DNA of 64,000 nucleotides from Citricoccus sp. K5 (GTDB lineage: Bacteria; Actinomycetota; Actinomycetes; Actinomycetales; Micrococcaceae), in the NCBI RefSeq assembly GCF_902506195.1, contig NZ_LR732817.1, positions 2,695,407-2,759,406 on the forward strand, in the 5' to 3' direction. The first letter of the stretch is position 1, and each line of letters begins with the position of its first letter. Made by a program: the position numbers and the translations under genes. This document shows, piece after piece, positions 48,716 to 64,000 of this stretch. The notes under the pieces are model-generated. The model worked only from the letters and a program-made list of their open reading frames with translations, ran no database searches and had not been told where the DNA came from.

Positions 48716-49473
48716 TTCTCGGCGGCCAGCTCGGCCGCGGTCTTGGTGGCCAGGCAGGGCTTGGGCTGGCCGGCGGCGAGGGCTTCGCGCTCCTCGCGCT
48801 CCTTCACGCCGGACTCGGTCGGGATCCCGACGACGGTGTCCACGTAGATGCCCGGGGTCACCACGTGCTCCGGGTTCAGCGACTCCTCGAGGACCTCGTC
48901 CACCTGCACGATCGTGTGGGCGGCGGCGGTGGCCATGACCGGTCCGAAGTTGCGGGCGGTCTTGCGGTACACGAGGTTGCCGGAGGGGTCCGCCGCGTAG
49001 GCCTTGATCAGGGCGAAGTCGCCGCGGATCGGGGACTCCAGCACGTAGTGCCTGCCGTCGATCTCGCGGACCTCCTTGCCCTCGGCCAGCTGGGTTCCGT
49101 AGCCGGTGGGGCTGAAGAAGCCGCCGATGCCGGCCCCGGCGGCCCGCATGCGCTCGGCCAGGTTGCCCTGCGGGACGAGCTCGAGCTCGATCTCTCCGGC
49201 ACGGTACGCCTCGTCGAAGTGCCAGGAATCGGACTGGCGCGGGAAGGAGCAGATGATCTTGGCGACCCGCCGTTCCTTGATCAGCAGGGCCAGGCCGGCG
49301 TCGGCCTGACCGGCGTTGTTGTTCACCACGGTCAGGCCGGTGGCACCGGAATCCATCAGGGCGTCGATCAGCTCCATCGGCTGGCCGGCATTGCCGAATC
49401 CACCGATCAGCACCGTGGCGCCGTCGGTGATCCGGGAGACGGCCTGGGCGGCCGAGTCCACGAACTCAAGCAT
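48712..49473 (-). CDS. pcaI: 3-oxoadipate CoA-transferase subunit A
   Basis: 253 residues. Alpha-subunit marks: ATVLIGGFGNAGQPMELIDAL, NNAGQADAGLALLI, the RMRAAGAGIGGFFSPTGYGT loop and SPIRGDFALIKAYAAD. It forms the heterotetramer with PcaJ. CAAGGAGGAACG precedes the ATG at 49473. A 24-bp perfect inverted repeat lies 35 bases upstream of the start, between it and pcaF. Confidence 0.88.
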   Translation of the reverse strand: MLEFVDSAAQAVSRITDGATVLIGGFGNAGQPMELIDALMDSGATGLTVVNNNAGQADAGLALLIKERRVAKIICSFPRQSDSWHFDEAYRAGEIELELVPQGNLAERMRAAGAGIGGFFSPTGYGTQLAEGKEVREIDGRHYVLESPIRGDFALIKAYAADPSGNLVYRKTARNFGPVMATAAAHTIVQVDEVLEESLNPEHVVTPGIYVDTVVGIPTESGVKEREEREALAAGQPKPCLATKTAAELAAEK

Positions 49474-49507
49474 CGTTCCTCCTTGTAGCGGGGATGAGAG
49501 GGGTGTG

Positions 49508-49568
49508 GTCTTCAGTCGACTTGGGGTGGGTGTTGGGCTCCCAGACCCACCCCAAGTCGACTGAAGAC
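49508..49568. repeat. Perfect 24-bp inverted repeat between pcaF and pcaI
   Basis: Arms 49508-49531 and 49545-49568 are exact reverse complements around a 13-base loop. The arm contains GTCGACTTGGGGTGGGT. There is no U-run. It does not share the CGACGCCGGC core of the other hairpins and looks like a REP/MITE-type insertion or an mRNA-stabilising element within the operon. Confidence 0.8.
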
Positions 49569-49582
49569 GTGAGGGGGTGAGG

Positions 49583-50803
49583 TCAGCGGGCGTTGACGTT
49601 CTCGAGGACCACGGCGAGGCCCTGGCCCACACCGATGCACAGCGCGGCGACGCCCCAGCGGTCGCCGGAGGCCTCGAGGCGGCGGGCCAGGGTGCCGAGC
49701 ACGCGGGCGCCGGAGGCTCCGAGCGGGTGGCCGATGGCGATGGCCCCGCCCCACGTGTTGACGATGTCCAGGTCCACGCCCCAGGCGTCCGTGCAGGCCA
49801 GCGACTGGGCGGCGAAGGCCTCGTTGAGCTCCACCGCTGCGATGTCCTCCCACGTGATGCCGGCTCGCTCGATCGCCTGGTTGACGGCGTCCACCGGGGC
49901 GTAGCCGAAGTACTGCGGCTCGTTGGCGGCGGCGGCGCGGCCGGCGATGCGGGCGAGCGGCTGCAGGCCGAGGATGTCCGAGGCCTTCTCCGAACCGAGC
50001 CAGGCCGCGGAGGCACCGTCGTTCATCGGGGAGGCGTTGCCGGCGGTGACCATGCCGTTCTCCTTGCGGAACACGGTGCGCAGGCCGGACAGGGACTCGG
50101 CGGTGGAGTCGGGCCGGATGGTCTCGTCCCGGGTCAGGTCCACGTCCGGGACCTGCACGGTCAGGTTGCCATACTTGCCCTCGTCCCAGGCCTTCGCGGC
50201 CAGCTGGTGCGAGTTCGCCGCGAACTCGTCCATGCGCTCACGGGTGATGCCGTACTTCTCCCGCAGCTGCTCGGTGGCCTCGCCGAGGGAGACGGTCCAT
50301 TCCTTCGGCATGTTCTTGTTGATCAGGCGCCAGCCGAGAGTGGTGTTGGCCAGCTCGAGGTTGTGCATGGGGAAGGGGCGCTCGGTCTTGGGCAGCACCC
50401 AGGGAGCGCGGGACATGGACTCGACGCCGCCGATGAGCATGACGTCGGCCTCGCCCACGTTGATCTGGCGGGAGGCGATGATGGCGGCGTCCAGCGAGGA
50501 GCCGCACAGGCGGTTCACGGTGGTGCCGGGAATCGAGGTGGGCAGGCCGGCCAGCAGGGTGGCCATGCGGGCGACGTTGCGGTTCTCCTCGCCGGCGCCG
50601 TTGGCGTTGCCGAAGACGACCTCATCGATCTGCTCGGCCCCGGACGCGCCTGCGGCGGCCAGCTTCGGGGCGCGCTTGACGGACTCGGCCACCACGAGGG
50701 CGGCGAGGTCGTCCGGGCGGGTCTTGGCCAGCGCCCCGCCGACCTTGCCGAAGGGGGTGCGGACGGCATCGTAGAGGTAGGCGTCCTGGAATTGGGTGCT
50801 CAT
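49583..50803 (-). CDS. pcaF: Beta-ketoadipyl-CoA thiolase
   Basis: 406 residues. Thiolase signatures: active-site Cys100 (VNRLCGSSLDA), GGVESMSRAPWVLPK, NEAFAAQSLA, His359 (IGHPLGASGAR) and Cys389 (CIGVGQG). It splits 3-oxoadipyl-CoA into succinyl-CoA and acetyl-CoA. GAAAGGACC precedes the ATG. It sits 11 bases after the pcaC stop, so it belongs to the pca operon. Confidence 0.9.
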   Translation of the reverse strand: MSTQFQDAYLYDAVRTPFGKVGGALAKTRPDDLAALVVAESVKRAPKLAAAGASGAEQIDEVVFGNANGAGEENRNVARMATLLAGLPTSIPGTTVNRLCGSSLDAAIIASRQINVGEADVMLIGGVESMSRAPWVLPKTERPFPMHNLELANTTLGWRLINKNMPKEWTVSLGEATEQLREKYGITRERMDEFAANSHQLAAKAWDEGKYGNLTVQVPDVDLTRDETIRPDSTAESLSGLRTVFRKENGMVTAGNASPMNDGASAAWLGSEKASDILGLQPLARIAGRAAAANEPQYFGYAPVDAVNQAIERAGITWEDIAAVELNEAFAAQSLACTDAWGVDLDIVNTWGGAIAIGHPLGASGARVLGTLARRLEASGDRWGVAALCIGVGQGLAVVLENVNAR

Positions 50804-50814
50804 GCGGGGTCCTT

Positions 50815-51264
50815 TCAGAGGTCCTTGCCGGCGGCCAGGTCCTCGTCCACTTGGGCGAAGACCTCCTGGGCCAGCTTGAAGGCGATGTTGGCGGCGGGAA
50901 CGGAGGAGTAGATGGCGGTCTGGAGCAAGATCTCCTTGATCTCGTCCCGGCTCAGGCCGTTGCGCAGGGCCGCGCGGAGGTGCATGGCGGCCTCCTCCCA
51001 GTATCCCCCCGAGACCATCGCGGAGATGGTGACGGCCGAGCGCATCCGGCGGTCCAGGCCGGGGCGGGTCCAGATGGTGCCCCAGGCGTAGCGCGTGATG
51101 AGGTTCTGGAAGTCCTCGGTGGTCTCGTCCTTGTTGGCCTCGGCCCGGTCCACGTGGGCGGTGCCGAGGACCTCGCGGCGCACGGCCATGCCGGCGTCGT
51201 AGACCTCCTGGGAGGTGCGGTCCATCTGGTGTCCCACCGGCTGACCGGTCTGGTTCTCACTCAT
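50815..51264 (-). CDS. pcaC: 4-carboxymuconolactone decarboxylase
   Basis: 149 residues of the AhpD-like fold: YDAGMAVRREVLGTAHVDRAEAN, FQNLITRYAWGTIWTRPGLDRRMRS, and LRAALRNGLSRDEIKEILLQTAIYSSVPAANIAF. It converts 4-carboxymuconolactone to 3-oxoadipate enol-lactone. Its ATG overlaps the pcaD stop by 4 nt. In many actinobacteria pcaD and pcaC are one fused gene (pcaL) in this same order; here they are separate. Confidence 0.92.
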   Translation of the reverse strand: MSENQTGQPVGHQMDRTSQEVYDAGMAVRREVLGTAHVDRAEANKDETTEDFQNLITRYAWGTIWTRPGLDRRMRSAVTISAMVSGGYWEEAAMHLRAALRNGLSRDEIKEILLQTAIYSSVPAANIAFKLAQEVFAQVDEDLAAGKDL

Positions 51265-52067
51265 GCGGTGAAGGCCTCCTTGAGGATGGTTGCGGTCTCG
51301 GCGGGCTTCTCGATCGGCGCCTGGTGAGCCACGTTCTCCAGTACATGGGCCTGACCGGAGGCGACGCCGGCCGCGATCGCCTCGCCGTCCGCCGGCGGGC
51401 AGACGCCGTCCTCGGCCCCGTGGAGGGCCACGATCGGGACGGTGATCTCCCCGAGGCGCTCGCGCACGTCGAAGCCGCCGAGGGCCTCGCAGAGCCGGGC
51501 ATAGGAGAAGCGGTCGGCCTCCTGCAGGGTGTGCAGCAGTCGGGTGGTGCGCTCGGCGTGCTGCTCGATGAACCCCTGGGCGAACCACTTCTCGGCGGAG
51601 CCGGCCACCATGGACGGGGTGCCGGCGGCCTCCACGAAGGTGGCGCGCTCCTGCCAGGCCTCGGTCTGGCCGATCTTCGCGGCCGAGCAGATCACGGCGA
51701 TGCCGTCGAACAGGTCACCGTGGTCCAGGCCGAGCTGCAGGGCGACCGCACCGTTGATGGAGACGCCGGCGTAGTAGACCTTGGCCCCGGCCGGGATGGT
51801 CCCGGCCGCGTGCTGGGCCTTCACCAGGTCGGCCACGGCGTTGGCCAGGTCCGCCATGGCGATCGGCTCGTTGTGGGCCGGGGACTGGCCGTGGCCGGGC
51901 AGGTCCCAGCCGATGACCTGGAAGCGGTCCGCCAACTCGTTGGCGGCCTCCGCCCAGAGGGCCTGGACGCCGGTGCCCAGGCCGGCCCCCACGAACAGGA
52001 CGTCCTTGTCCGGGGTGGCCTCGCCCTCGCCGGCGAGGCGGATGGCGGTGATCTCTGGTGTGCTCAC
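51261..52067 (-). CDS. pcaD: 3-oxoadipate enol-lactonase
   Basis: About 268 residues, alpha/beta hydrolase. GWDLPGHGQSP, the nucleophile elbow GVSING (Ser103), the acid region ALHGAEDGVCPP and His in VAHQAP form the triad. It hydrolyses the enol-lactone to 3-oxoadipate. The GTG at 52067 is chosen because GGAG lies just upstream and it overlaps the pcaB stop by 4 nt; ATG 52079 is possible. Confidence 0.9.
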   Translation of the reverse strand: MSTPEITAIRLAGEGEATPDKDVLFVGAGLGTGVQALWAEAANELADRFQVIGWDLPGHGQSPAHNEPIAMADLANAVADLVKAQHAAGTIPAGAKVYYAGVSINGAVALQLGLDHGDLFDGIAVICSAAKIGQTEAWQERATFVEAAGTPSMVAGSAEKWFAQGFIEQHAERTTRLLHTLQEADRFSYARLCEALGGFDVRERLGEITVPIVALHGAEDGVCPPADGEAIAAGVASGQAHVLENVAHQAPIEKPAETATILKEAFTA

Positions 52068-53722
52068 GTGGTGCTCCATTCTGCGAAATTGCGGTACTCG
52101 GCGACGAGGCGGTCCACCAGGGTGGTGGCCTCGCCGGTGTAGTTGGCCGGGTCCAGCAGGCCGTCCAGCTCGGCGTCCGAGACGGTGTCCGGCAGGGCGG
52201 CGCGCAGCAGGCTCCGGAAGTCGTTCCCCTGCTGCTGGCCATCCTGCTGGCCGTGCTGTGATTCCAGACTGCGGTCCACGATCTCCTGCAACCGCTCTTT
52301 GCCCGAACGGGACGTGCCCGAACCGGATTGGCCGGAGCCGGCCCTGCCGCCACTCTCCGGGCCGCTCTCCTCGAGGAGCGGGGCGAGCTCGACCATGAGC
52401 CGCTCGGAGACCAGCAGGGGGCCCACGCGATTCAGGTTCTCGGCCATGCGGTCCGTGTTGACGCGCAGGCCGGAGACGAGTTCCGCCGTCCGGGCGGCGG
52501 CTCCCCCGGCGGTGCGCATCAGCTGGCGCAGGGCAGGCCACTCGGCGTGCCAGGCCCCGTCCGGGCGTTCCTCGTTGGCGGCGCCGGCGGCGGTGAGGAC
52601 CTGCGCGAGCGTGCCGGGGGCGCCGAGTGCGCCGGCGTGGATCATCACGGACAGCACGGGGTTCTGCTTGTGCGGCATCGCGGAGGACCCGCCGCGGCCC
52701 GCGACCAGCGGCTCACCGAGTTCACCGTTCTCGATCCGGGCGGAGATCAGCACGTCATTGGCGATCTTCCCGCAGGCCGCCACCACATCGGCCAGCGCTG
52801 CGGCCAGCCCGGTGATGGGCATGCGGTTGGTCTGCCACGGTCCAGCGGGAGCCTTCAGGCCGAGTCGCTGAGCCAGCTCCTCGACGAGGGTGAAGGCATC
52901 GGTGCCGGCGTCCAGTGTCCCGGCGGCGCGGGCTGTGGCCACGCGGCCGGACAGGGCGGCCATGGTGCCCGCGGCGCCGCCCCACTGGATCGGCAGTTCC
53001 GCGGTGGCGGCCTCGAGCCGGCGGCCGGCCTGGGCCAGTCCGGACATCCAGCCGGCGGCGCGCAGGCCGAAGGTGGAGGGCAGGGAGTGCTGCGCCAGCG
53101 AGCGGGCCACCATGGGGGTCGCCCGGTGCTCCGTGGCCATCGCGGCCAGGGATCCGACGGCGGCGCGGAGGTCCGCCAGGACCGTCCCGGCGACCTGGGC
53201 GGCCATCCTCATCATGGCGGTGTCCATGATGTCCTGGCTGGTCGCACCCACGTGGATGGCGGAGGAGACCCCGGGCTCGGTGGGGGCGGCCTGCGCGGCC
53301 CGGGCCCGCATGGCCTTGAGCGCCGGGATCAGGACGTTTCCGCCGTTCTGGCCGGCGTGGGCGAGCCCGATCAGGTCGTAGTCGGCGAGGTGGCGCGGGT
53401 CGGCGGCCTCGGCGGCGGCCTCGGCCTGGCCGGCGGTGACCATCCCGTGCTGGGCGAGGACCGCGGTCCACGCGGCCTCGACCTGCAGCAGGTGGAGCAG
53501 GTAGTTCGCGTCCGAGGACTGGACCACCGCGGTGGTTCCGGAGGACAGCGGGTCCAGCAGGCCGGCGTCGGCCTCCGCGGCCAGCGCCGTCAGTCCCGGC
53601 GCTCCGGACAACCCGTCCGAACCGATTGAACCGATTGAACCGATTGAACCGATTGAACCGTCAGATCCGGCTGCACCGGACGCGGTGGCCTGGTGTTCTG
53701 ACGGCGACGCGGGCGTGGACAT
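52064..53722 (-). CDS. pcaB: 3-carboxy-cis,cis-muconate cycloisomerase
   Basis: 552 residues, fumarase/aspartase superfamily. The signature GSSAMPHKQNP and the helical core with HVGATSQDIMDTA are present, and ALAQHSLPSTFG-type helices follow. It lactonises 3-carboxymuconate. It is about 100 residues longer than the usual 450, owing to an N-terminal Ser/Gly/Ala tail that contains a GSI tripeptide repeated four times and a C-terminal Gly/Ser/Gln-rich insert. CCAGGAGAG precedes the ATG. Confidence 0.88.
   Translation of the reverse strand: MSTPASPSEHQATASGAAGSDGSIGSIGSIGSIGSDGLSGAPGLTALAAEADAGLLDPLSSGTTAVVQSSDANYLLHLLQVEAAWTAVLAQHGMVTAGQAEAAAEAADPRHLADYDLIGLAHAGQNGGNVLIPALKAMRARAAQAAPTEPGVSSAIHVGATSQDIMDTAMMRMAAQVAGTVLADLRAAVGSLAAMATEHRATPMVARSLAQHSLPSTFGLRAAGWMSGLAQAGRRLEAATAELPIQWGGAAGTMAALSGRVATARAAGTLDAGTDAFTLVEELAQRLGLKAPAGPWQTNRMPITGLAAALADVVAACGKIANDVLISARIENGELGEPLVAGRGGSSAMPHKQNPVLSVMIHAGALGAPGTLAQVLTAAGAANEERPDGAWHAEWPALRQLMRTAGGAAARTAELVSGLRVNTDRMAENLNRVGPLLVSERLMVELAPLLEESGPESGGRAGSGQSGSGTSRSGKERLQEIVDRSLESQHGQQDGQQQGNDFRSLLRAALPDTVSDAELDGLLDPANYTGEATTLVDRLVAEYRNFAEWSTT
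53621..53656 (-). repeat. 9-bp tandem repeat inside pcaB (4 copies)
   Basis: Four exact copies of accgattga (plus-strand reading) encode repeated Gly-Ser-Ile in the PcaB N-terminal tail; a fifth, diverged unit follows. Copy-number change would stay in frame. Confidence 0.9.
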
Positions 53723-53771
53723 CGGGGGAGCTCTCCTGGGGTGGTGGGGTTGTTTCTAGGCTATCCGCACC

Positions 53772-53833
53772 GATGGCCCGGCGGGCCTTTGCGTCCGTTC
53801 TCGTCACGGAGGCGCGGGTCCCGCCGGGCCATC
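53772..53833. repeat. 14-bp inverted repeat between pcaG and pcaB
   Basis: Arms 53772-53785 and 53820-53833 are exact reverse complements (GATGGCCCGGCGGG) around a 34-base loop, within the 159-base gap. It could attenuate read-through from pcaHG into pcaB or protect the pcaHG mRNA. Confidence 0.6.
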
Positions 53834-53881
53834 AGGCGGCGGCGTGCCGGGTGGTGCCGGCACTCATCCTTCGGAACCGGA

Positions 53882-54523
53882 TCAGTCGTGCACCGGGTAC
53901 TCGATGCCGGGAAACTGCAGGAAGACGGTCTCCTTCTCGCCCTGCAGGTGGATGTCGAACCGCAGGGTGCCATCGGCCTCACGCTCGGCGATCAGCGTCT
54001 GGCGGCGGTCCGCCTCCACGGAGGAGAGCAGCGCGTCCTTCTCGAGGGCGGCGGTGTCCTCCGGCAGGTAGATCCGGGTGTGCAGCTTGTTCATCAGGCC
54101 GCGGGCGAAGACCACCACGTGGATGAACGGTGCCTTGCCCTCTTCCGTGGGCCCCGGGTTGACGGTGGAGAACGTGTAGGTGCCCACGTTGTCCGCGGTG
54201 GCCCGTCCCCAGCCGGTGAAGGTCCAGCCGTCGCGGACCAGGGAGCCGGTCTCCTGGGGGATCTGCCCGTTCTCGTCGGCCTGCCAGATCTCGATCATGG
54301 CGTCCGGGATCGGGTCCCCGGCGCCGTCATAGACGGTGCCGGTCAGGCGCACGGCCTTCGGGCTGGCCGGGTTCACCAGGTGCTGGCCGTCCCGGAAGGG
54401 GATGTGGACGTTCTCGTACCCGGAGGCGTAGCCGAAGAACGGGCCGATGGTCTGGCCCGGGGTAGCCACCAGCTTCTCGCTCCCGTCGCGTGCCGCGGCC
54501 AACTGGTTCTGATCAATGCGCAT
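53882..54523 (-). CDS. pcaG: Protocatechuate 3,4-dioxygenase alpha subunit
   Basis: 213 residues. TPGQTIGPFFGYA at the start and LTGTVYDGAGDPIPDAMIEIWQADENG, FTGWGRATAD, FIHVVVFARGLMNKLHTRIYLP are the alpha-subunit blocks. The iron ligands of the beta subunit are absent, as expected (His/Tyr positions are replaced). With PcaH it cleaves protocatechuate to 3-carboxymuconate. Its start overlaps the pcaH end by 11 bases. Confidence 0.93.
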   Translation of the reverse strand: MRIDQNQLAAARDGSEKLVATPGQTIGPFFGYASGYENVHIPFRDGQHLVNPASPKAVRLTGTVYDGAGDPIPDAMIEIWQADENGQIPQETGSLVRDGWTFTGWGRATADNVGTYTFSTVNPGPTEEGKAPFIHVVVFARGLMNKLHTRIYLPEDTAALEKDALLSSVEADRRQTLIAEREADGTLRFDIHLQGEKETVFLQFPGIEYPVHD

Positions 54524-55346
54524 CGGTGTCGCCCTCCATCCAGGTACGGTTGCTGCCGGTCAGGACGATGTCCCAGTAGTAGCCGGTGTTCCACTCGTGC
54601 GTGGAGACGTTGTGGTCGTACGTAGCGACCAGGCGGTCGCGGGCCTTCTGGTCCGTGATCGACTGGTAGATCGGGTCCAGGCTGAACAGCGGATCGCCCG
54701 GGAAGTACATCTGGGTGATCATGCGCTGGGTGAAGTCCGTGCCGAACAGCGAGAAGTGGATGTGCGCCGGACGCCACGCGTTGTGGTGGTTCTTCCACGG
54801 GTACGGCGCCGGCTTGATGGTGGTGAACTCGTAGAAGCCCTTGTCATCGGTGATGGTGCGGCCCACACCGGTGAAGTTGGGGTCCAGCGGCGCCGGGTGC
54901 TGATCGCGCTTGTGCACGTAGCGGCCGGAGGCGTTCGCCTGCCAGATCTCCACCAGCTGGTTGCGCACCGGGCGGCCGTCGCCGTCCAGCACGCGGCCAC
55001 GGACCACCATGCGTTCGCCCAGCGGCTCGCCGTTGCCCTGGACGGTCAGGTCGGACTCCAGGGTGTGGACGTCCCGGTGGCCGAAGGCCGGGGACCACAG
55101 CTCGATGGTCTCCGGGTCGGTGTGGTGCATGTCCTTGGTGGGGTGGCGCAGCAGGGAGCTGCGGTACGGCGGGAAGTTCACGCGCGGCTGGGTCTCCCCG
55201 GACGCCGAGTCGTGGATGTCCTTGATCTCGGCGCTGATGGTCTCCTGGGAGTCCTGCGTCGCGGCGGGGTCGAGCACGTGGCTGTTGTCAAAGGTCTCAT
55301 CGTCCTCGACGACGGGACCGGTGTTCTCGGTGATGTCATTGCTCAC
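54513..55346 (-). CDS. pcaH: Protocatechuate 3,4-dioxygenase beta subunit
   Basis: 277 residues. The Fe(III) ligands are visible: Tyr143 (GRYVHK), Tyr182 (APYPW), His195 and His197 (RPAHIHFS). The segment LVEIWQANASGRY and DPNFTGVGRTITD are diagnostic for PcaH. A 55-residue acidic N-terminal extension precedes the usual start. The GTG at 55346 follows GAAAGGAGC; the frame is open upstream but without a ribosome site. Confidence 0.95.
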   Translation of the reverse strand: MSNDITENTGPVVEDDETFDNSHVLDPAATQDSQETISAEIKDIHDSASGETQPRVNFPPYRSSLLRHPTKDMHHTDPETIELWSPAFGHRDVHTLESDLTVQGNGEPLGERMVVRGRVLDGDGRPVRNQLVEIWQANASGRYVHKRDQHPAPLDPNFTGVGRTITDDKGFYEFTTIKPAPYPWKNHHNAWRPAHIHFSLFGTDFTQRMITQMYFPGDPLFSLDPIYQSITDQKARDRLVATYDHNVSTHEWNTGYYWDIVLTGSNRTWMEGDTDAH

Positions 55347-55418
55347 GGGCTGCTCCTTTCTACGGTTCTGGTTCTGCAGTGGGCGGATTGGTGGACGGTG
55401 GTGCGGTGAGGAGCCCGG

Positions 55419-55470
55419 GCCCGACGTCGGCCGGTCCCCTCCAGCGCCGGCCCGCGGGCCGGCGTCGGGC
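55419..55470 (-). terminator. Hairpin after pobA
   Basis: 14-bp stem with one G-U pair (55419-55432 / 55457-55470), core CCGACGYCGGCC, six bases beyond the pobA stop. It separates pobA from the pcaHG transcript. Confidence 0.65.
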
Positions 55471-55475
55471 ACCGG

Positions 55476-56717
55476 TCAGGCGTGCGGCCAGCCGGTGTAC
55501 GACTCGGCCAGGTACTGCTGGCCGTAGCGCGAGGAGGTGACGGTCTCGAGCTCACCGAGGGCGCGCTTGGTCTCGAACGGGTGGGCGTCCTTGCGGGTGT
55601 GGAGCATGGACGTCATCCAGTAGGAGAAGTTCTGGGCCTTCCAGACGCGTTTCAGGGCGGTCTCGGAGTAACCGTCCAGCAGCTCGCGGGAGCCGGTGGC
55701 GTAGAACGAGTCCAGAGCCTCGAACAGCACCTTGATGTCCGCGAACGCCAGGTTCAGGCCCTTGGCCCCGGTCGGCGGGACGGTATGCGCGGCGTCCCCG
55801 GCCAGGAACATGTTGCCGTGGCTCATGGGCTCGCGGACGAAGGAGCGGAAGCCGAGCACCGTCTTGTCGAAGATCGGGCCGGTCTTGAGCTGGAAGCCGT
55901 CCGGGCCGTCCACGCGCTTCTGCAATTCCGACCAGATCCGGTCGTCCGACCAGTCCTCGGTCCTCTCCGCCGGATCGCACTGGAAGTACATCCGCTGGAC
56001 GTTCGCGGAGCGCTGGGAGATCAGGGCGAAGCCGTGCGGGGAGTTCGCGTAGATCAGTTCCGGCGAGGACTTCGGGGCCTCGGTCAGGATGCCGAACCAG
56101 GCGAAGGGGTACTCGATCTTGAAGTCCTGGTGTCCCTGTTCCTGGCCCACGGCGCGGCGGCAGAAGGAGCGGGAGCCGTCAGCGCCCACGAGGACGTCGC
56201 AGTGGACCTCGTGGACGGCATCCGGGTCGGCACCGGCAGAGACGTCCTTGTAGCGGATCTTCGGGGTGTCCGACTTCAGGTCCGCCACCTCGATGACCGC
56301 GGATTCGTAGCGGATGTCACCGCCGTCCCGCTTCCGGGCCGCGGCCAGGTCGATGAACACCTCGTTCTGAGCGTACAGGGTGACCGTGGCGTCCACGAGG
56401 TCCGGGAAGTTCAGCGGGTGGGACTCCCCGTTGAAGCGCAGGTCGATGCCCTCGTGCTCGTCACCGTGGGTCAGCACGCGGCCGTCCACGCCGGACTCCG
56501 TCAGCATCTTCACCGCCTGCTGTTCCAGGATTCCCGCGCGGTGGGTGTTCTTGATGGTCTCCTGGTCCCGCAGTTCGATGACCACATTGTCGATGCCCTG
56601 CTTCGCCAGCAGGTGGGAGAGCAGGAGCCCGGCGGGGCCGCCTCCGACGATGCCCACCTTCGTCCGGGTGAGCTGTGGTGTATCTGCCCTATCGGCGCTG
56701 CCTGCGCTGGCTGCCAT
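55476..56717 (-). CDS. pobA: 4-hydroxybenzoate 3-monooxygenase
   Basis: 413 residues. Class A flavoprotein hydroxylase: VGIVGGGPAGLLLSHLLAKQG (FAD), RAGILEQQAVKML, VGADGSRSFCRRAV (DG motif) and MFLAGDAAHTVPPTGAKGLNLAFAD (GD motif). It converts 4-hydroxybenzoate to protocatechuate with NAD(P)H and O2. AAGGAG precedes the ATG at 56717. It is preceded by an IclR regulator with a 17-bp palindrome between them. Confidence 0.95.
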   Translation of the reverse strand: MAASAGSADRADTPQLTRTKVGIVGGGPAGLLLSHLLAKQGIDNVVIELRDQETIKNTHRAGILEQQAVKMLTESGVDGRVLTHGDEHEGIDLRFNGESHPLNFPDLVDATVTLYAQNEVFIDLAAARKRDGGDIRYESAVIEVADLKSDTPKIRYKDVSAGADPDAVHEVHCDVLVGADGSRSFCRRAVGQEQGHQDFKIEYPFAWFGILTEAPKSSPELIYANSPHGFALISQRSANVQRMYFQCDPAERTEDWSDDRIWSELQKRVDGPDGFQLKTGPIFDKTVLGFRSFVREPMSHGNMFLAGDAAHTVPPTGAKGLNLAFADIKVLFEALDSFYATGSRELLDGYSETALKRVWKAQNFSYWMTSMLHTRKDAHPFETKRALGELETVTSSRYGQQYLAESYTGWPHA

Positions 56718-56852
56718 TCCAACTCCTTCGTTGTGCGGGGATCCGCGGCCGGGCCGGGGACTCATCCTGCGGGACGTCGTCAAGGCCGCGGGCTGCGGGG
56801 CCGGGCCTTCTGCCACCAGTGTGATGGAGCGTACAGACGATTGGCGGATCAA

Positions 56853-56869
56853 TTCTCACTGAGTGAGAA
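56853..56869. promoter_or_regulatory. 17-bp palindrome in the pobA promoter, IclR operator candidate
   Basis: TTCTCACT-G-AGTGAGAA is a perfect dyad in the 170-base gap between the IclR-family gene and pobA, about 135 bases ahead of pobA, adjoining the 3' end of the regulator gene. Confidence 0.55.
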
Positions 56870-56887
56870 GGATGACCGCGATGCAGG

Positions 56888-57769
56888 TCACTCCCCGGTG
56901 CCCGGCAGCGCCACGGGCGGGTGCTGAGGGAACACCGTGTCCGACGCCGGCATGGCCGCCTGGGGGCCCAACGCGCGGCTGATGCCGCGAGCCGCGGCGA
57001 GCAGCATCGGAGCCAGGCCGGGACGGAATTCCGAGGAGCGGGGCACCACCACACCGAGTGCCGCCACGGCATGGCCCTCTGGCGAGAGGACCGGCACGGC
57101 GACGCCGGTGGATTCCGAGTCGATCTGCCCGTCCACTGAGGCCCAGCCCTGGCGGCGGGTCTCCGCCAGTTGCAGGCGCAGTTCGGGCTCGGTGGGGTTG
57201 ACCACCCCGCGGGCGTTGCCGGGGCCGGCGTCGTGCCCCGGACCACCCACCGGGGCGCCGAGTTCCGCGGCGTGGTCGGCGAGGAAGGATTCCGTGACGT
57301 GGCGCCGGGCGAAAGCCATCAGCACGAGCCCGAGCGAGGTGGTGAACGTGGGCATGCGGCCGGCGATGGTGGCCTGGTTGGGCACGGCTCCGCGCGCGGA
57401 GAGCCGCTCGAGGACCAACACGCCGTGGGCGTCCAGCACCGCGATCTGCGTGTGTTGTCGCAGCACGGCCTGGACGTCGTCCATGTACGGCATGGCGGCC
57501 TGGCGCAAGGAGGTCCCGGGCGAGGAGCGCGAGGCCAGTTCCCACAGTTTCATCCCGGGCCGGACGTCACCGTCCGAGCGTTCCAGCAGTCCGGCCGAGG
57601 TGAGCCGGTCCACCCAGCGGTAGGCGGTGGGCAGGGGGATGGCCGCGCGTCGGGCGAGGGCGGCAATCGAGAGTGTGGATCGCTCGGCGTCAAAGGCGCC
57701 GAGGATCCGGATCAACCGGTCCAGGGTGCTGTCCCCTTCCGACCGCCTGCTTCCGGGGCTCTCCGTCAT
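56888..57769 (-). CDS. IclR-family regulator, PcaR/PobR-like
   Basis: 293 residues. N-terminal HTH: STLDRLIRILGAFDAERSTLSIAALARRAAIPLPTAYRWVDRLTSAGLLE; C-terminal GAF-like effector domain with RLSARGAVPNQATIAGRMPTFTTSLGLVLMAF and GWASVDGQIDSESTGVAVPVLS. IclR proteins such as PobR and PcaR control 4-hydroxybenzoate and protocatechuate genes. It reads in the same direction as pobA and immediately precedes it. The ribosome site is weak (GGTAGG). Confidence 0.85.
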   Translation of the reverse strand: MTESPGSRRSEGDSTLDRLIRILGAFDAERSTLSIAALARRAAIPLPTAYRWVDRLTSAGLLERSDGDVRPGMKLWELASRSSPGTSLRQAAMPYMDDVQAVLRQHTQIAVLDAHGVLVLERLSARGAVPNQATIAGRMPTFTTSLGLVLMAFARRHVTESFLADHAAELGAPVGGPGHDAGPGNARGVVNPTEPELRLQLAETRRQGWASVDGQIDSESTGVAVPVLSPEGHAVAALGVVVPRSSEFRPGLAPMLLAAARGISRALGPQAAMPASDTVFPQHPPVALPGTGE

Positions 57770-58112: not shown

Positions 58113-59336
58113 TCAGGACTTTCGACTTCGGTACCAGCGCTGCCCAGCGGATGAGGCCGTGGTGGTCATCCATTCCAGCGGACCCTGGGACCGCTCCGTG
58201 ACATTGCGCCAGAGCACCACGAACAGCAGAGCCAGGCCCACCTGCAGCCAGAACGAGATGTACGGGGTCTCCTGCAGCAGTCCTGTCGCCAGGAAGATCA
58301 GGTGGGTCACGTAGAGAGTGAGCGTCATGGATCCGACCAGGGCCAGCGGCCGGAGCCACTGCCCGATCCGCTGACCCAGCCAGAGCATGGCCCCCAGGCA
58401 GGCCAGGGCCCAGCCGAGGGTGTTGAGGACCTCCACGGGGGTCTCCGAGTACGGTGACAGCATCAGCAGCCACCAGCCCGAGTTGATGTCCGGGGTGGTG
58501 AACTCCAGCCCCCAGGTCAGTGACCGCACCAGCTCGTCCTCCGTCAGCCCGGGCGTGGTCGCAAGGACCCGGTCGAACCCGCCGAGGACCTCGATGGACA
58601 ACCACGAGACCAGCCAGGTGGCCAGTGACATGGTCAGGCCCACCACCATCAGCCTGAGGTGGGTGTCCCGCAGGGTCAGGTTGAACCGTCCGACGGCGAG
58701 GCCGGCGAAGAGGAAGGCGGACCACGCCAGGACGGGGTAGGTGCCGGTGACCAGGAGTGCGGCGATCGTGCCGTCCGGCTGGGCGACGATGGACCCGAGC
58801 GATGGGTCGTAACCGTCCAGGTTCGGCATGGCGTTGCCGACGAGGTGGATGAACAACGTCCCCGCCAGCGCGAACACACCGGCCACGGTGGCGATCATCG
58901 GCGCGGGCGCTCCGAGCAGCGGTATGGCCATGAGGAACATGACACCGTAGTAGGTCAGGATGATGCCGGCCGGCGGGTCGAGGATCGCCAGCATCAGCCC
59001 GATGACGATGAGCACCACGGCCCGGATGGCGATGCCGACCCGCTTGGCCGCCAGGGCCTCGCCGGTCACCGGCTTGTTGCCACCGGTCATCAGCGCCAGG
59101 GAGACGCCAGCCAGGAACGTGAACAAGGCCGCCGAGATGCCGGAGCCGATCTCCCAGATCAGGGTGGTCTCCCCGGCCTCGGTGCTCTCGGGCAGGACGT
59201 GGATGGCGATCATGCCGATCAGTGCGAGCCCGCGGGCTGCATCGAGGCCGACGATCCGCCTCGACCGGCGTGGCGCGGCAGTCACGGCCCCGTCCTGGGT
59301 GCCGATTCGATCCGCTGGTCCGTCCGTCGAGGTCAC
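58113..59336 (-). CDS. Multi-pass membrane acyltransferase-like protein (HGSNAT/DUF418-type)
   Basis: About 407 residues with 10 or so hydrophobic helices. RRIVGLDAARGLALIGMIAIHVLP is the signature of the heparan-alpha-glucosaminide N-acetyltransferase-like and DUF418/DUF1624 membrane acyltransferase families, with the conserved membrane His (IHVLP). Such proteins acylate extracytoplasmic or membrane substrates. The GTG at 59336 overlaps the stop of the DapA-like gene by 4 nt, so it is translationally coupled to the NRPS operon and may modify or help export its product. Confidence 0.7.
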   Translation of the reverse strand: MTSTDGPADRIGTQDGAVTAAPRRSRRIVGLDAARGLALIGMIAIHVLPESTEAGETTLIWEIGSGISAALFTFLAGVSLALMTGGNKPVTGEALAAKRVGIAIRAVVLIVIGLMLAILDPPAGIILTYYGVMFLMAIPLLGAPAPMIATVAGVFALAGTLFIHLVGNAMPNLDGYDPSLGSIVAQPDGTIAALLVTGTYPVLAWSAFLFAGLAVGRFNLTLRDTHLRLMVVGLTMSLATWLVSWLSIEVLGGFDRVLATTPGLTEDELVRSLTWGLEFTTPDINSGWWLLMLSPYSETPVEVLNTLGWALACLGAMLWLGQRIGQWLRPLALVGSMTLTLYVTHLIFLATGLLQETPYISFWLQVGLALLFVVLWRNVTERSQGPLEWMTTTASSAGQRWYRSRKS

Positions 59337-60355
59337 CGGCCGACCTGTCCGACCGTGGCCTCTGCGGGAAGCCATCCGGTGGGCACCCGGGCGGGATCCG
59401 CCGGCGCGCCCATCTCGGTGACGGTTCCGGCCAGGACGTGGCGCAGCTCGCGCCGCTGTTCCTCGGTCAGATCCACCAGTGGCAGGCGCACTGGTCCGCC
59501 CGGCAGCCCCAGGTCACCCAGGGCGGCCTTGGCCGACGCGGCACCGGGGGCCCAGAACATCCCGCGGAAGATCGGCATGAGGTGGCGGTGCAGCGCCAGG
59601 GCCTCCGCGTTCCGGCCGTGGACGTGATGCTGCAACAGCTGGGTGAGCTGGTCACCCACCACGTGGCCGACCACCGACACGAAACCAGTGGCCCCCACGG
59701 ACAGCCAAGGCAGGTTCAGCGCATCGTCACCCGAGTAGTACGCCAGGTGTGTCTGCCCCATGACCTCGGTGGCCCCCTCGAGGTCGCCCTTGGCCTCCTT
59801 GACGGCCAGGATGCGTGGGTGCCGTGCGGCGGCCAGGACCGTCTCGGTCTCGATCGCGATGCCGGTGCGCTTGGGGATGTCGTAGATCATCACCGGGAGC
59901 TTGGTGGCATCGGCCACGGCCAGCAGGTGCCTCAGCAGTCCGGTCTGACCGGGGCAGGAGTAATAGGGCGCCACGACGAGCAGTCCGTCAGCCCCTGCCG
60001 AGGCCGCCTCCTTGGCCAGCTTGATGCTGTGGGCCGTACTCCCGGCCCCGACGCCGGCGATCACTTTGCCACCGTGGGCCGCGGCACCCTGCTTGGCGGC
60101 GCGGATGGCCCGGGACTTCTCCCGGTCGGTGGTGGAGATGGACTCACCGGTGGTGCCGTTGACCACCACGGAATCGTTCCAGCCATCGCGGGTCAGCCAG
60201 GCAGCCAGCCGTTCCGTGCCCCGTTCGTCCAGCCGGCCGGCGTGGTCGAACGGCGTCACCATGGCGGTGATGACCCGGCCGAACGCGGCGGAGGCCGCGT
60301 TCGGGGCGTTGGCGGTGGTCGAGTCGGTGTCTAACCTGTCGGGAACCATGCTCAT
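59333..60355 (-). CDS. DapA-family aldolase (4-hydroxy-tetrahydrodipicolinate synthase-like)
   Basis: 340 residues. N-acetylneuraminate lyase/DHDPS fold: NGTTGES (66-72), Tyr158 and Arg163 in YDIPKRTG, and Schiff-base Lys186 in AVKEAKGD. In lysine synthesis DapA condenses pyruvate with aspartate semialdehyde. The 25-residue N-terminal extension and divergent C-terminus suggest a secondary, pathway-dedicated copy. Its ATG overlaps the NRPS stop by 4 nt, so supply of lysine/diaminopimelate to the NRPS is a natural inference; other family aldolases are possible. Confidence 0.8.
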   Translation of the reverse strand: MSMVPDRLDTDSTTANAPNAASAAFGRVITAMVTPFDHAGRLDERGTERLAAWLTRDGWNDSVVVNGTTGESISTTDREKSRAIRAAKQGAAAHGGKVIAGVGAGSTAHSIKLAKEAASAGADGLLVVAPYYSCPGQTGLLRHLLAVADATKLPVMIYDIPKRTGIAIETETVLAAARHPRILAVKEAKGDLEGATEVMGQTHLAYYSGDDALNLPWLSVGATGFVSVVGHVVGDQLTQLLQHHVHGRNAEALALHRHLMPIFRGMFWAPGAASAKAALGDLGLPGGPVRLPLVDLTEEQRRELRHVLAGTVTEMGAPADPARVPTGWLPAEATVGQVGR

Positions 60356-63300
60356 CGTGCTTGCCCTTCAGTCGTGGTGGTGCGGTTGATCGGATCGGTG
60401 CGCAGGGAGCCGGACGGGACGGGGTCCGACGGGGCGGGAGCGGCCACGGAAGGGCCGGCTGACGCGGTCCACTTCCGGTCCCAGCGGCTGATGGGATTGC
60501 CGGCCCAGCGCCCGTGGGCCGGGACGGTCTCCTGGGCCATGACCAACGAGCCGGGACCCACGGTCGCGCCGTCTTCGACGACGCTGCCGGGCAGCAGCAC
60601 GCTGTTCGGGCCCAGGGTGGAGCGATCCTCCATCCGGACGGGGTCAATCCGCATGATGCGGTCGTGGAACAGGTGGGTCTGGAGCACAGTGCCCCGATTG
60701 ATGCTGACCCCGTGGCCGATCTCGATGACGTCGAACTCCGGCAGCCACCAGGTCTCGCACCACACGCGGCGGCCGACCTTCGCTCCCATGAGCCGCAGCC
60801 AGATGTTGAGCATCGGTGTGCCCAGGCTCATCCGGACCAGCCCGGGCACCGCCAGGGACTCGGAGAACACGTCCGCGAGCTCGTTCCGCCAGATGAAGCT
60901 GGTCCACAGGGCGTGCCGCCCGGGCTTGAACCGCCCGACCAAGGCCCACTTGGCGACCAGGGCGATGGCGCAGGCCACGGTGCTGCTGGCGAGCATCACC
61001 AGCCCTGACAGTGCCACCGCGGCCCAGAATCCGCCGTTGTCCAGGATCTCGGAGATGACCCAGACGGCGGCCAGGGCCAGCCAGGCCGCGATCATGAATG
61101 GCAGGAGGCGGAAGGCCTCCACGGCCGCACGGGCGGCGACGAGCTTCGTGGGAGGGTCATAGGTCAATCCGGAGTCAGCGCCGTCGACCGGCCGGGGCAG
61201 CTCGACGGCTGGGCGGCCGAAGAAGTTGGATGCCTCCGGCATGTCCCGCGGAGCCGAGGAGAGCACGGCCACGAGGGAGCGGTCCGGCACGTTGCGGTCC
61301 GGCCCGACGACGGCCGAGTTGCCGACGAAGGACCGGCTCCCCACGGAGGACGGGCCCACGTGCATCCACCCCCGGCGAACCCGTGCGGAGGTGCCCATCG
61401 AGTGATCGGCCATGAAGGACCTGTCACCCAGGACGGTCAGGTGCGGGATCGACTCCAGCGTCGAGATCTCCACGTGGCGTCCCACCCGGGCACCGAGGAG
61501 TCGGAACCACAGCGGGGTCAGGACGCTGGCATAGATCGGATAGACCGCGATGAGGGTCTTGGCCAGCAACAGGTTGCTGAGCCACACCGCCCAGCCGGCG
61601 GCCGAATGCAACGGGTGCATTCCGGGAACGATCAGCCGGGACAGCAATCGGACCGTCCCCGCGACCAGGGACAGGAAGGTCAGCACCGTGATCACAGCGA
61701 ACACGGGCACCAGCGCGGCCAGGGCCCACAGCACGTCAGAGAGCAGTGTCAGCTGCTGGAGCTGAACGGTCCACATCACCACGAGGGATCCCGGCACCAC
61801 CGACACCATCGGCAGCAGGCCCATGCCGAACAGGGACACCGGAAAGAGCAGCTGGATCCCACGGCGCCCGTGATGGGGCCGCGCGGCCACCGGCCACTCG
61901 TCACCGGCCTGGCCGATGTACTCCATCTGCGAGCCGGCCCAGCGTTCACCAGCCGGGATCAGGCCGGAGACCACGGTCCCGGGATCGACCTCGGCGTTCT
62001 CCCCCAGGCACGCGCCGTCCATGAGCACGGATCGGGTGCCCACGCGGGCCCCCGTGCCGATCTCCAGCGCGCCGACGTGAAGGTGATCGCCGTCCAGCCA
62101 ATGCCCTCCCAGGTCGGCCTCGTACTCGATCGACGCGCAGGCGCCGACGCTCATCAGGCCGGTGACCGGCGGCATGGCATCCAGGTGGACGTCCCGGCCG
62201 ATCCGGTTGCCGAGCAGACGGGCATAGGTGATGCCCCAGGAGGTCCCCATGATCGGTTCCAGCTTGCCGAAGGTCACGATCCGTTCGGCGGTCCAGATCC
62301 TCAGGTGGACCGCCCCGCCCCGCGGATAGGTCCCGGGCGCGATCCCGGCGGTCAGCAGCCGCGATGCCGCCGCCGCGAACACGATCCGTGAGGGCAGGCT
62401 GAACAGCACGGCCCATGCGGTGATCAGGATCCACACCGGCGGATTGGGCACCCACAGGGTCGGGAAGGGTGCCACGTTGTACAGGACCCAGCACACGATG
62501 CCGATGCCGGTCAGGTACCGCAGACCGGTGATCCCGTAGAGACCCAGGATGACGGGAAGCTGGACCAGCCCCGTCCACCACGGGGTGGGTTCGAGCTCGC
62601 GCTCCTCGTCCTCGCCGGACTCCAGGCCTTCCAGGTGCGCAGCAAGCGCTCCCAGGGTGGGGTGGGCGTAGATGTCCGCGATGGACACGTCCGGGTACTG
62701 GCCGCGCAGCTTCCCGACGAGATGGGCCGCCGCCAGGCTGGCTCCACCCGAGGCGAAGAAGTCGCTGTCCCCATCCAGTGGAAGAGGGCCGAGCAGCTCA
62801 GCCCACAGGTCGGCGATCCAGCCCTCGGTCCCGCTCAGCTGGTGCCCCGAACCGTCGGCCTGCTGCACCGGCCAGGGCAGGGCCTTGCGGTCCACCTTGC
62901 CGGAGGTCTTCAGTGGCAACTCGTCCATGACGGCCAGCGCCGGCACCAATTGGGCCGGAAGCTGCTCGGCCAAACGGCGCCGCAGTGCGGCCAGGTCCAG
63001 GGTGGTTCCCGGCTCAGGCAACAGGTATCCGGCCAGGACCTTGTTCCCGCTCGGGGTGGACTGCACGGCGGCGGCGCCGGCGGCCACGCCGGGCAGGCGG
63101 CTCAGGGTGTCATCGATCTCACCGAGTTCGATGCGGCGGCCGCCGAGCTTGATCTGGTCGTCCACGCGACCGGCGAAGAGCAGCCCGTCGGGTTCGGCGA
63201 CCACGAGGTCGCCGCTGCGGTAGGCGCGCTCCCAACCCAGAGCCGGCATGGGGGCGTACTTCTCGGCGTCCTTGTCTGCGTCCAGATATCGTCCCAGCCC

Positions 63301-64000
63301 GACGCCGCCGATGATGAGCTCACCGGTCTCGCCCCACCGGACCGGATTGCCCTCGGAGTCGACGACGGCCAGCTCCCACCCCCGCAGCGGCAGCCCGATT
63401 GACACCGGGCTGTCCGCGTCCAGCGCGGCGCCGCAGGCGATGACGGTTGCCTCGGTCGGGCCGTAGGTGTTCCACAGTTCCCGCCCCGGGCCGGCCAGCC
63501 GCGTCACGAGTTCACCCGGCAGGGCCTCACCGCCGAAGATCAGCAGGCGGATGTTGTCCAGAGCCTCCTGCGGCCACATGGCCGCCAGGGTGGGCACAGT
63601 GGAGACAGCGGTGATGCGCCGTTCGACCAGCCAGGGGCCGAGGTCCTCACCGGAACGGACGAGTGAGCGTGGCGCCGGCACCAGGCAGGCACCGCTGCGC
63701 CAGGCCAGCCACATCTCCTCACATGAGGCGTCGAACGCCACCGACAGTCCGGCCAGTACCCGGTCTCCCCGCGTCAGCGGCTCGCCCTCGAGGAACATCT
63801 GCGCCTCGGCGTCAGCCCAGGCCGCAGCGGACCGGTGGGTGATGGCCACGCCCTTGGGCTTGCCCGTGGAGCCCGACGTGAAGATGATCCACGCGTCGTC
63901 CTCCGGATGCGGCTCGGGAGCCCCGCCCACCGTGGCCACGCCCGGCCGGGCCGAAATCGTCAGGCCCTCGGTCACGACGGCGCACACCCTGGCCTCGGCC
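60352..64000 (-). CDS. Pls/PosA-type single-module NRPS (poly-amino-acid synthetase), 5' end outside window
   Basis: The frame is open through the window edge; 1211+ residues are visible (numbering from the codon at 63987). Order: adenylation domain with A3 TSGSTGKPKG, NTYGPTEAT, YRSGD, KLGGRRIELGEI and A10 TSGKVDRKAL; carrier domain with DSDFFASGGASL (Ser417 for phosphopantetheine); then three transmembrane blocks (about 472-545, 711-785, 950-1017), each followed by a soluble left-handed-beta-helix-like acyltransferase module (about 575-690, 825-930, 1055-1170). There is no condensation or thioesterase domain. This is the layout of epsilon-polylysine synthetase Pls. Residues aligned to the ten-position code read D86 A87 E90 S129 I150 G152 T174 V182 I183 K364, lysine-like. 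Confidence 0.85.
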   Translation of the reverse strand, partial: AEARVCAVVTEGLTISARPGVATVGGAPEPHPEDDAWIIFTSGSTGKPKGVAITHRSAAAWADAEAQMFLEGEPLTRGDRVLAGLSVAFDASCEEMWLAWRSGACLVPAPRSLVRSGEDLGPWLVERRITAVSTVPTLAAMWPQEALDNIRLLIFGGEALPGELVTRLAGPGRELWNTYGPTEATVIACGAALDADSPVSIGLPLRGWELAVVDSEGNPVRWGETGELIIGGVGLGRYLDADKDAEKYAPMPALGWERAYRSGDLVVAEPDGLLFAGRVDDQIKLGGRRIELGEIDDTLSRLPGVAAGAAAVQSTPSGNKVLAGYLLPEPGTTLDLAALRRRLAEQLPAQLVPALAVMDELPLKTSGKVDRKALPWPVQQADGSGHQLSGTEGWIADLWAELLGPLPLDGDSDFFASGGASLAAAHLVGKLRGQYPDVSIADIYAHPTLGALAAHLEGLESGEDEERELEPTPWWTGLVQLPVILGLYGITGLRYLTGIGIVCWVLYNVAPFPTLWVPNPPVWILITAWAVLFSLPSRIVFAAAASRLLTAGIAPGTYPRGGAVHLRIWTAERIVTFGKLEPIMGTSWGITYARLLGNRIGRDVHLDAMPPVTGLMSVGACASIEYEADLGGHWLDGDHLHVGALEIGTGARVGTRSVLMDGACLGENAEVDPGTVVSGLIPAGERWAGSQMEYIGQAGDEWPVAARPHHGRRGIQLLFPVSLFGMGLLPMVSVVPGSLVVMWTVQLQQLTLLSDVLWALAALVPVFAVITVLTFLSLVAGTVRLLSRLIVPGMHPLHSAAGWAVWLSNLLLAKTLIAVYPIYASVLTPLWFRLLGARVGRHVEISTLESIPHLTVLGDRSFMADHSMGTSARVRRGWMHVGPSSVGSRSFVGNSAVVGPDRNVPDRSLVAVLSSAPRDMPEASNFFGRPAVELPRPVDGADSGLTYDPPTKLVAARAAVEAFRLLPFMIAAWLALAAVWVISEILDNGGFWAAVALSGLVMLASSTVACAIALVAKWALVGRFKPGRHALWTSFIWRNELADVFSESLAVPGLVRMSLGTPMLNIWLRLMGAKVGRRVWCETWWLPEFDVIEIGHGVSINRGTVLQTHLFHDRIMRIDPVRMEDRSTLGPNSVLLPGSVVEDGATVGPGSLVMAQETVPAHGRWAGNPISRWDRKWTASAGPSVAAPAPSDPVPSGSLRTDPINRTTTTEGQAR

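Follow-up and report, generated by a model that had tools for sequence, protein, structure and literature searches.

A Pls-type synthetase with DapA and TmAT-superfamily partners in Citricoccus sp. K5, and an isoleucine-9 branch of actinobacterial Pls enzymes

Introduction

The epsilon-poly-L-lysine (epsilon-PL) synthetases (Pls) of Streptomyces (7wew) and Corynebacterium variabile (PMC8117764) consist of an adenylation (A) domain, a carrier (T) domain and three tandem acyltransferase-like modules with transmembrane segments. The same order is found in the synthetase described here, which is encoded by Citricoccus sp. K5 at the end of a 64,000-nucleotide stretch of contig NZ_LR732817.1 (positions 2,695,407 to 2,759,406, forward strand; hereafter the window), within a genome of 3.88 Mb. 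On the minus strand its gene is followed by dapA and then by a gene for a membrane acyltransferase of the TmAT superfamily, and the operon is taken as these three genes (Pls, DapA, TmAT). The polymer machine itself is of a known kind. What is new is a branch of Pls with isoleucine at position 9 of the A-domain pocket code (Ile-9), whose partner is a TmAT protein and, in part of the branch, DapA as well.

The C. variabile Pls gave epsilon-PL in Streptomyces coelicolor, and its partner is a peptidase; the published Pls operons carry a peptidase gene where the present one has DapA and TmAT (PMC8117764). Homologues have been recorded in Arthrobacter, Glutamicibacter, Micrococcus and other genera, and pockets “identical or highly similar” to those of confirmed Pls were accepted as lysine pockets, so that coryneform homologues have so far been grouped together as probable lysine enzymes (PMC8117764). 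The results, discussion and bioinformatics sections of that paper make no mention of DapA or membrane acyltransferase partners, or of two classes. Clusters for non-alpha poly-amino acids in Micrococcaceae have been counted, without gene detail in the portion of the source consulted (PMC11078813). A precursor gene adjacent to the synthetase is known from gamma-poly-L- and poly-D-diaminobutyric acid (gamma-PLDAB/PDDAB; dat and ask; PMC8117764) and from epsilon-poly-beta-lysine (lysine 2,3-aminomutase; PMC10522769). In the present operon it is dapA, a gene that engineers overexpress in order to raise epsilon-PL yield (PMC8506220). An initial annotation of the window, made from the sequence alone, had supposed that a coupled Pls-DapA-acyltransferase unit was undescribed, and indeed no description was found in the literature searched, which lay mostly outside subscription journals and was covered in part.

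If there are two classes of Pls with different partners, genome-mining calls need splitting, and the polymer of the second class may be a different one that carries acyl groups. A Pls with its own DapA would moreover be a natural precedent for the engineers' dapA overexpression (PMC8506220), and a simple, testable rule is offered by a single residue, code position 9 being Val or Ile, together with the neighbouring gene.

Architecture and pocket code of the synthetase

The window ends inside the Pls gene. The remainder of the A domain, which the initial annotation proposed to seek past position 64000, is present there, and the frame is complete at 1379 residues, which rules out a window-edge artefact. 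The protein matched TIGR02353 (Pls/PosA non-ribosomal peptide synthetase terminal domain) with 603.4 bits against a cut-off of 423.1, over profile positions 33-695 of 695. Its Pfam matches were AMP-binding, PP-binding and Hexapep (Hexapep_2 stayed under its cut-off), with no condensation or thioesterase domain among them. In an AlphaFold2 model of residues 634-1345 (mean predicted local distance difference test score, pLDDT, 86.5; predicted template-modelling score, pTM, 0.88), the secondary structure inspected by eye falls into three repeats, in each of which long helices lead into a strand-rich segment resembling a beta-helix. Foldseek gave five matches at E ≤ 0.001 for this model, and GlmU and other hexapeptide acetyltransferases were found, weakly (best E 5.9e-4) and with partial coverage. 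The C-terminal region is 45% identical to that of a Kitasatospora aureofaciens relative (L097). The Pfam and TIGR02353 matches and the model agree with the A-T protein with three transmembrane blocks and beta-helix modules, lacking condensation and thioesterase domains, that had first been read from the letters, and its family matches place the protein among the Pls/PosA homopoly(amino acid) synthetases.

The A domain shares 65% identity with the 7wew chain over 474 aligned positions (phmmer E 7.2e-189). Alignment with this chain returned the pocket code DAESIGTVIK, the same as the earlier reading; 7wew has DAESIGTVVK, so that nine of the ten residues match and only position 9 differs. In enzymes of this kind, the residue at code position 2 varies with the substrate, being Ala for lysine, to whose length it is tied, Met for ornithine and Phe for diaminopropionate or diaminobutyrate (Dap/Dab); the side-chain amine is bound by the Glu of position 3 (PMC10522769). 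Because Ala-2 and Glu-3 are kept and nine code residues are those of 7wew, lysine is the most likely monomer judging from the pocket, with a reservation over Ile-9. If an epsilon-poly-L-lysine synthetase is defined strictly, by the 7wew code and a peptidase gene in the operon, the present Pls departs at one of ten code positions and is followed by DapA, TmAT and then an IclR-type regulator.

The strict code is found in a second Pls of the same genome (P0004; G000:C1:1786944-1791092, L010:7945-12093, plus strand), which reads DAESIGTVVK as in 7wew, and whose end is overlapped by 4 nt by an M1-family peptidase gene (L010:12090-13634). This peptidase is not equated with PldII because PldII is described with two zinc ions (PMC9223678). 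Between the two synthetases of the genome, A-domain identity is 66% and C-terminal identity 40%. No TmAT gene lies within the 6 kb examined downstream of P0004, nor close upstream. P0004 is perhaps the organism's ordinary epsilon-PL synthetase; since it carries the code of the Streptomyces enzyme, the operon Pls (P0001) is a divergent paralogue and not simply the epsilon-PL synthetase of this organism. In Paeniglutamicibacter antarcticus (L081:2211-15091), a Pls of the DapA/TmAT type stands head to head with another Pls, and an M1 peptidase gene lies beyond the latter.

Two classes of Pls and their partner genes

We aligned 122 Pls loci, namely the two of this genome, the best 80 of 594 candidates from named genomes, and 40 hand-picked loci, most of them taken for high identity. 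The set is therefore not random, and it comprises 114 distinct loci once repeats are removed, some still near-identical. A gene was counted as downstream when its tblastn match started no more than 300 nt ahead of the end of Pls and no more than 6 kb past it. Among the distinct loci, TmAT was downstream of 37/39 with Ile-9 and of 2/75 with valine at this position (Val-9), an association whose P values ignore relatedness. TmAT stood alone at 22 of the 37 loci, with DapA at 10, and with DapA and an M1 peptidase at 5; of the two Ile-9 loci that lack it, one (L089) is on a metagenome contig that has been rearranged and the other (L170) is at the end of a contig. The Val-9 loci comprise 66 with an M1 peptidase gene, 7 with neither type of neighbour, and 2, both from Nesterenkonia, with DapA, TmAT and M1 peptidase. 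Before repeats were removed, Ile-9 was present in 44/47 TmAT-linked loci and Val-9 in 73/75 loci without TmAT. Beyond the A domain, positions 659, 980, 984, 1030 and 1268 split TmAT-linked from Val-9 rows at ≥90%. Position 351, which is code position 9, separates them as well, at a circular 73/73 when the Val class is chosen by that residue and at 73/75 without that choice.

The neighbour types are not exclusive, given that Nesterenkonia and the Arthrobacter pullicola group have DapA, TmAT and M1 peptidase together, and that seven distinct loci with Pls-DapA-TmAT carry an M1 peptidase gene within 6 kb downstream. The fullest version of the cluster that we saw (L085, L190-L193) has a second, divergent TmAT upstream of Pls and the M1 peptidase downstream of Pls-DapA-TmAT. 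Pfam analysis of one mechanically chosen open frame beside each of six Kitasatospora/Streptomyces Pls loci (L138, L112, L095, L109, L097, L139) found no peptidase. One Streptomyces Pls is closely followed by a TnpB-family (IS605) gene (L112:13564-14832).

The division recurs in Corynebacterium, where 78 of 101 genomes had a Pls match and 30 loci were fetched with about 1.5 kb of flank each. TmAT was present at 12/12 Ile-9 and 0/18 Val-9 loci; 11 of the 12 are new, since L242 comes from the same genome as L093 of the first set. Of the 18 Val-9 loci, two have an M1 gene and the other 16 lack all three neighbours, and at least two Pls-family matches occur in 10/12 of the Ile-9 genomes.

A Pls tree, built by a quick method with support from the Shimodaira-Hasegawa-like approximate likelihood ratio test (SH-aLRT) only, from 61 of 97 non-redundant rows and with L170 left out, is divided by a long branch (0.37, SH-aLRT 100), with L089 and the TmAT-linked rows to one side of it. 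The remaining rows, including Kitasatospora, Streptomyces and P0004, are on the other side. DapA-bearing rows group inside the TmAT side, together with two DapA-less rows and L089 (SH-aLRT 90 and 92 on the key forks). With L089 scored as lacking both TmAT and DapA, this tree requires TmAT and position 9 to change twice each and DapA four times. Ile-9 Pls is a branch whose partner is TmAT, and it is TmAT, not DapA, that is the more constant partner, DapA being present in part of the branch only. DapA seems to have entered an existing Pls-TmAT pair; if it did so once, it has been lost at least two times since.

Where DapA is present in Micrococcaceae, it sits between Pls and TmAT, and the order Pls-DapA-TmAT recurs in named genomes of Citricoccus, Arthrobacter, Paeniglutamicibacter and Nesterenkonia. 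The survey of gene order suggested in the initial annotation thus finds the unit conserved across several genera, which leaves no question of chance. The nearest named genome for the operon is that of Citricoccus zhacaiensis, with 95% identity across the whole synthetase, and the synthetase is found at ≥94% identity in 3/8 genomes of its genus examined, our own counted. Among 72,556 plasmid records, 200 had a Pls match, all below 60% identity, with no close copy of the operon Pls among them.

The operon DapA

The operon DapA (P0002) scored 252 bits against the TIGR00674 dapA equivalog model, whose cut-off is 206. It keeps the equivalents of all six catalytic residues T44, T45, Y107, Y133, R138 and K161 of E. 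coli DapA. Its linked relatives include one with Asn at the place of T45 (L081) and one that is unreadable there because of N bases (L185). Where E. coli has His53 and His56 of its lysine site, the operon DapA has Asp and Lys, as does M. tuberculosis DapA (1xxx), with which it shares 49% identity and the same catalytic residues. DapAs with Asp and Lys at these places may escape lysine feedback. The operon enzyme differs from the M. tuberculosis one in being coupled to a Pls and in being a second copy: a housekeeping DapA (L041, at G000:C1:767557), 40% identical to it, rules out that the operon gene is the only dapA of the genome.

In a DapA tree, the 23 Pls-linked DapAs group in a single clade (100/99) that excludes 1xxx and the nine housekeeping DapAs; the program issues a warning over long branches that join at 1xxx. 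The E. coli sequence, L043, L044, L045 and the copy of G228 (N bases) were left out of this tree. Two DapA loci at E ≤ 1e-40 are present in 23/25 genomes with a Pls of the TmAT class, the linked copy in G228 being a fragment, and the other two genomes, G095 and G030, have one DapA locus each and carry Pls-TmAT without DapA. The equivalog score, the retained catalytic residues and the separate housekeeping copy support the earlier suggestion that this DapA would serve lysine supply. By coordinates, a TmAT paralogue stands beside the housekeeping dapA in G231, G285, G292, G212 and G182, in addition to the loci considered below.

The TmAT-superfamily acyltransferase

The TmAT superfamily, which includes HGSNAT, YeiB/DUF418 and AT3, is marked by DxxR in the first transmembrane helix (TMH1), FxxxxG in TMH2, an Arg in TMH3 and a Tyr in TMH9; a His in TMH1 indicates AT3, and an Asn there HGSNAT (PMC12423673). 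Carbohydrates are the usual acceptors, and for some natural products the final acylation takes place after export and is carried out by AT3 proteins (PMC12423673). The operon protein (P0003) matched PF07786 (HGSNAT_cat) with 39 bits, the cut-off being 22, and gave no match to PF01757 (AT3, Acyl_transf_3), to which two of its Corynebacterium relatives scored 26.3 and 23.8 bits, under the cut-off of 31. It shares the DxxR, the FxxxxG, the TMH3 Arg and the TMH9 Tyr with the superfamily. Among 39 distinct operon TmATs, His59 (the x10H of DxxRx10H), F85, G90, Y355 and H358 are present in 39/39, and D45, R48 and R118 in 38/39. Residues were assigned to helices by eye on an AlphaFold2 model (pLDDT 86.3, pTM 0.85); several Gly are conserved as well, none of them assigned to TMH6, where the superfamily has a Gly. 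All nine Foldseek matches of the model at E ≤ 0.001 are HGSNAT (TMq 0.47-0.52; for instance E 6.8e-5 with TMq 0.49). The protein thus has the TMH1 His of AT3 instead of the Asn of HGSNAT, despite its HGSNAT_cat match, and by motifs and modelled fold it is a TmAT protein with mixed HGSNAT/AT3 marks; it is set apart from known TmATs by standing beside a polyamino acid synthetase. The initial annotation had this gene modifying or exporting the product. The membrane acyltransferase part agrees with the TmAT motifs and fold, whereas an export role finds no support because the TmAT superfamily moves acyl groups across the membrane.

In 295 genomes of the family, the best 29 TmAT matches are all at Pls operons, a partly circular result because the profile was built from Pls-linked proteins and the cut at 29 was set after the list. 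Of the 29, 28 were placed by eye from coordinates and that of G173 by closer reading of the locus. The 30th match (G258:C1:2682887) is separated by some 14 kb from the TmAT of the operon in that genome, and lower matches are mixed. In G173 (contig C5; L234:5296-9212), the Pls adjoining TmAT matches as two pieces in different frames and appears frameshifted.

TmAT relatives also stand beside synthetases that are about 28% identical to P0001 and carry the motif FDFSVEE, with Phe at code position 2, at four loci (L230-L233) in two genomes (G175, G162). TmAT is divergent at three of these loci, with another frame between at L233, and co-directional at L232, where an M28 peptidase gene then follows. 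The five TmATs at these loci include three with the TMH1 Asn and one with His (L230a, about 4.5 kb from Pls); in that of L232, the text pattern matched elsewhere. That TmAT also occurs beside synthetases with Phe at position 2 favours a connection with polycation synthesis as a whole.

Proposed pathway and alternative explanations

We consider it probable that the operon makes a lysine isopeptide polymer with a dedicated lysine supply and an acylation step outside the cell. The A domain of the single-module membrane synthetase would activate L-lysine, which would be loaded on the carrier domain, and the three C-terminal acyltransferase-like modules would join lysines via their side-chain amines into a short cationic isopeptide polymer. 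The coupled DapA may be an additional enzyme reserved for the operon, which on expression of these genes would draw aspartate semialdehyde towards lysine. TmAT would take acyl groups from acyl-CoA in the cytosol and transfer them to an acceptor on the outer side, most probably the amino groups of the nascent or exported polymer and less likely a wall glycan, in protection of the producer. The lysine homopolymer named in the initial annotation accordingly stands as far as a Pls-type synthetase and lysine as most likely monomer (code, Ala-2, Glu-3) are concerned, while the polylysine product itself is a prediction.

Several observations weigh against this reading. Code position 9 is Ile, as against Val in 7wew, and we know of no Ile-9 Pls whose product has been shown, the confirmed C. 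variabile enzyme lying outside this comparison. Inside the DapA branch, two loci (L083, L189) have no DapA. A TMH1 His is found in two of the three TmAT paralogues of the same genome, the third having Asn, and the operon TmATs are not one clade, since other TmATs, including those of the same genome, nest among them (a quick tree with long-branch warnings, on which five changes are needed, four of them forced by starred branches). Furthermore, a divergent TmAT paralogue lies beside the housekeeping dapA at 4/9 loci (L041 of this genome, L222, L223 and L224; not L225-L229), and hence TmAT may serve lysine or wall metabolism and not the polymer.

The main rival holds that the product is plain epsilon-polylysine, and that TmAT gives self-protection by acylating a wall glycan or teichoic polymer so that the polycation binds less to its producer. 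Carbohydrates as the usual TmAT acceptors (PMC12423673) fit this explanation, as do the TmAT paralogues that occur away from any Pls and the presence of TmAT alongside synthetases of two code types, which generic resistance would predict. It sits poorly with the Val-9 Pls of the same genome, which has the 7wew code and no TmAT over the interval given above, and the 4-nt overlaps suggest, rather than prove, a product-specific step; on balance we regard wall protection as rather unlikely. The Ile-9 residue could instead be the sign of a different monomer, a near relative of lysine such as ornithine or a modified lysine. PosA Ser313, the equivalent of code position 9, touches the side-chain amine (PMC10522769), so that a changed monomer preference is possible, and Ile-9 and TmAT coincide closely (44/47 and 73/75, as above). 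Yet position 2 is Ala as in lysine enzymes, PosA having Met and the Dap/Dab enzymes Phe (PMC10522769), the adjacent DapA makes a lysine precursor, and Nesterenkonia of the same branch combine Val-9 with DapA and TmAT, all of which makes another monomer improbable.

It is harder still to regard dapA and the TmAT gene as mere neighbours unrelated to the polymer. The TmAT paralogue beside the housekeeping dapA would allow that the pair travels together for some other reason, but the conserved order, the short gaps and small overlaps (as far as the starts of open reading frames can be told), the single clade of linked DapAs and the TmAT that directly follows Pls where DapA is absent (Kocuria, Corynebacterium) make this very improbable. 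Returning to an acylated lysine polymer, a bolder form of it would have two old actinobacterial Pls paralogues with different products, one making epsilon-polylysine and the other, Ile-9/TmAT type, an extracellular lysine polymer with acyl groups that mask part of its charge, supplied by a dedicated DapA in Micrococcaceae. We put this forward tentatively, as something that could well prove wrong. If true, the acyl-modified epsilon-polylysine of such a Pls/TmAT pair would represent a natural polymer of a new class, and it would explain how a cell can tune the charge of its own polycation.

Coordinates and neighbouring genes

The features of the operon are collected in Table 1. The initial annotation had both junctions coupled by 4-nt overlaps. 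This holds for Pls-DapA (ATGA), and for DapA-TmAT (GTGA) only if the GTG at 59336 is the TmAT start, the overlap being 43 nt with the ATG at 59375; in the relatives L080 and L181, the DapA-TmAT overlap is likewise 4 nt.

Table 1. Features of the Pls-DapA-TmAT operon; positions are those of the window unless a locus is named.
Feature	Position	Strand	Size or residues	Basis or remark
Pls/PosA-family synthetase	60352..64000	(-)	residues 165-1379	TIGR02353; reaches past window edge
Whole Pls gene	L009:3759-7898; start = would-be window position 64491		1379 aa	complete in genome
Pls adenylation domain	62860..64000	(-)	residues ~59-544 (part before 165 outside window)	7wew alignment
Codon of Pls residue 351 (code position 9, Ile)	63439..63441	(-)	residue 351	alignment to 7wew
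Pls carrier (T) domain, SGGASL phosphopantetheine motif	62632..62820	(-)	residues 558-620	PF00550 3.5e-11
Pls C-terminal polymerising region (predicted)	60457..62592	(-)	residues 634-1345 (712 residues)	AlphaFold2 model mabd2df29faca
dapA, 4-hydroxy-tetrahydrodipicolinate synthase	59333..60355	(-)	340 aa	TIGR00674; second DapA of the genome
TmAT-superfamily membrane acyltransferase	58113..59336 (GTG) or 58113..59375 (ATG)	(-)	407 aa (GTG) or 420 aa (ATG)	PF07786

A scan for consensus promoters and terminators gave no match. Upstream of the operon lies a divergent gene (L009:8042-9187) with a YkuD match below threshold, and downstream of TmAT follows the IclR-type regulator (P0010; 56888-57769), which scores under the cut-off of the PcaR model. 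Directly downstream on the minus strand, positions 48712-57769 hold genes that resemble a protocatechuate/4-hydroxybenzoate (beta-ketoadipate) catabolic cluster, their names being read from the translations, with the exception of the regulator.

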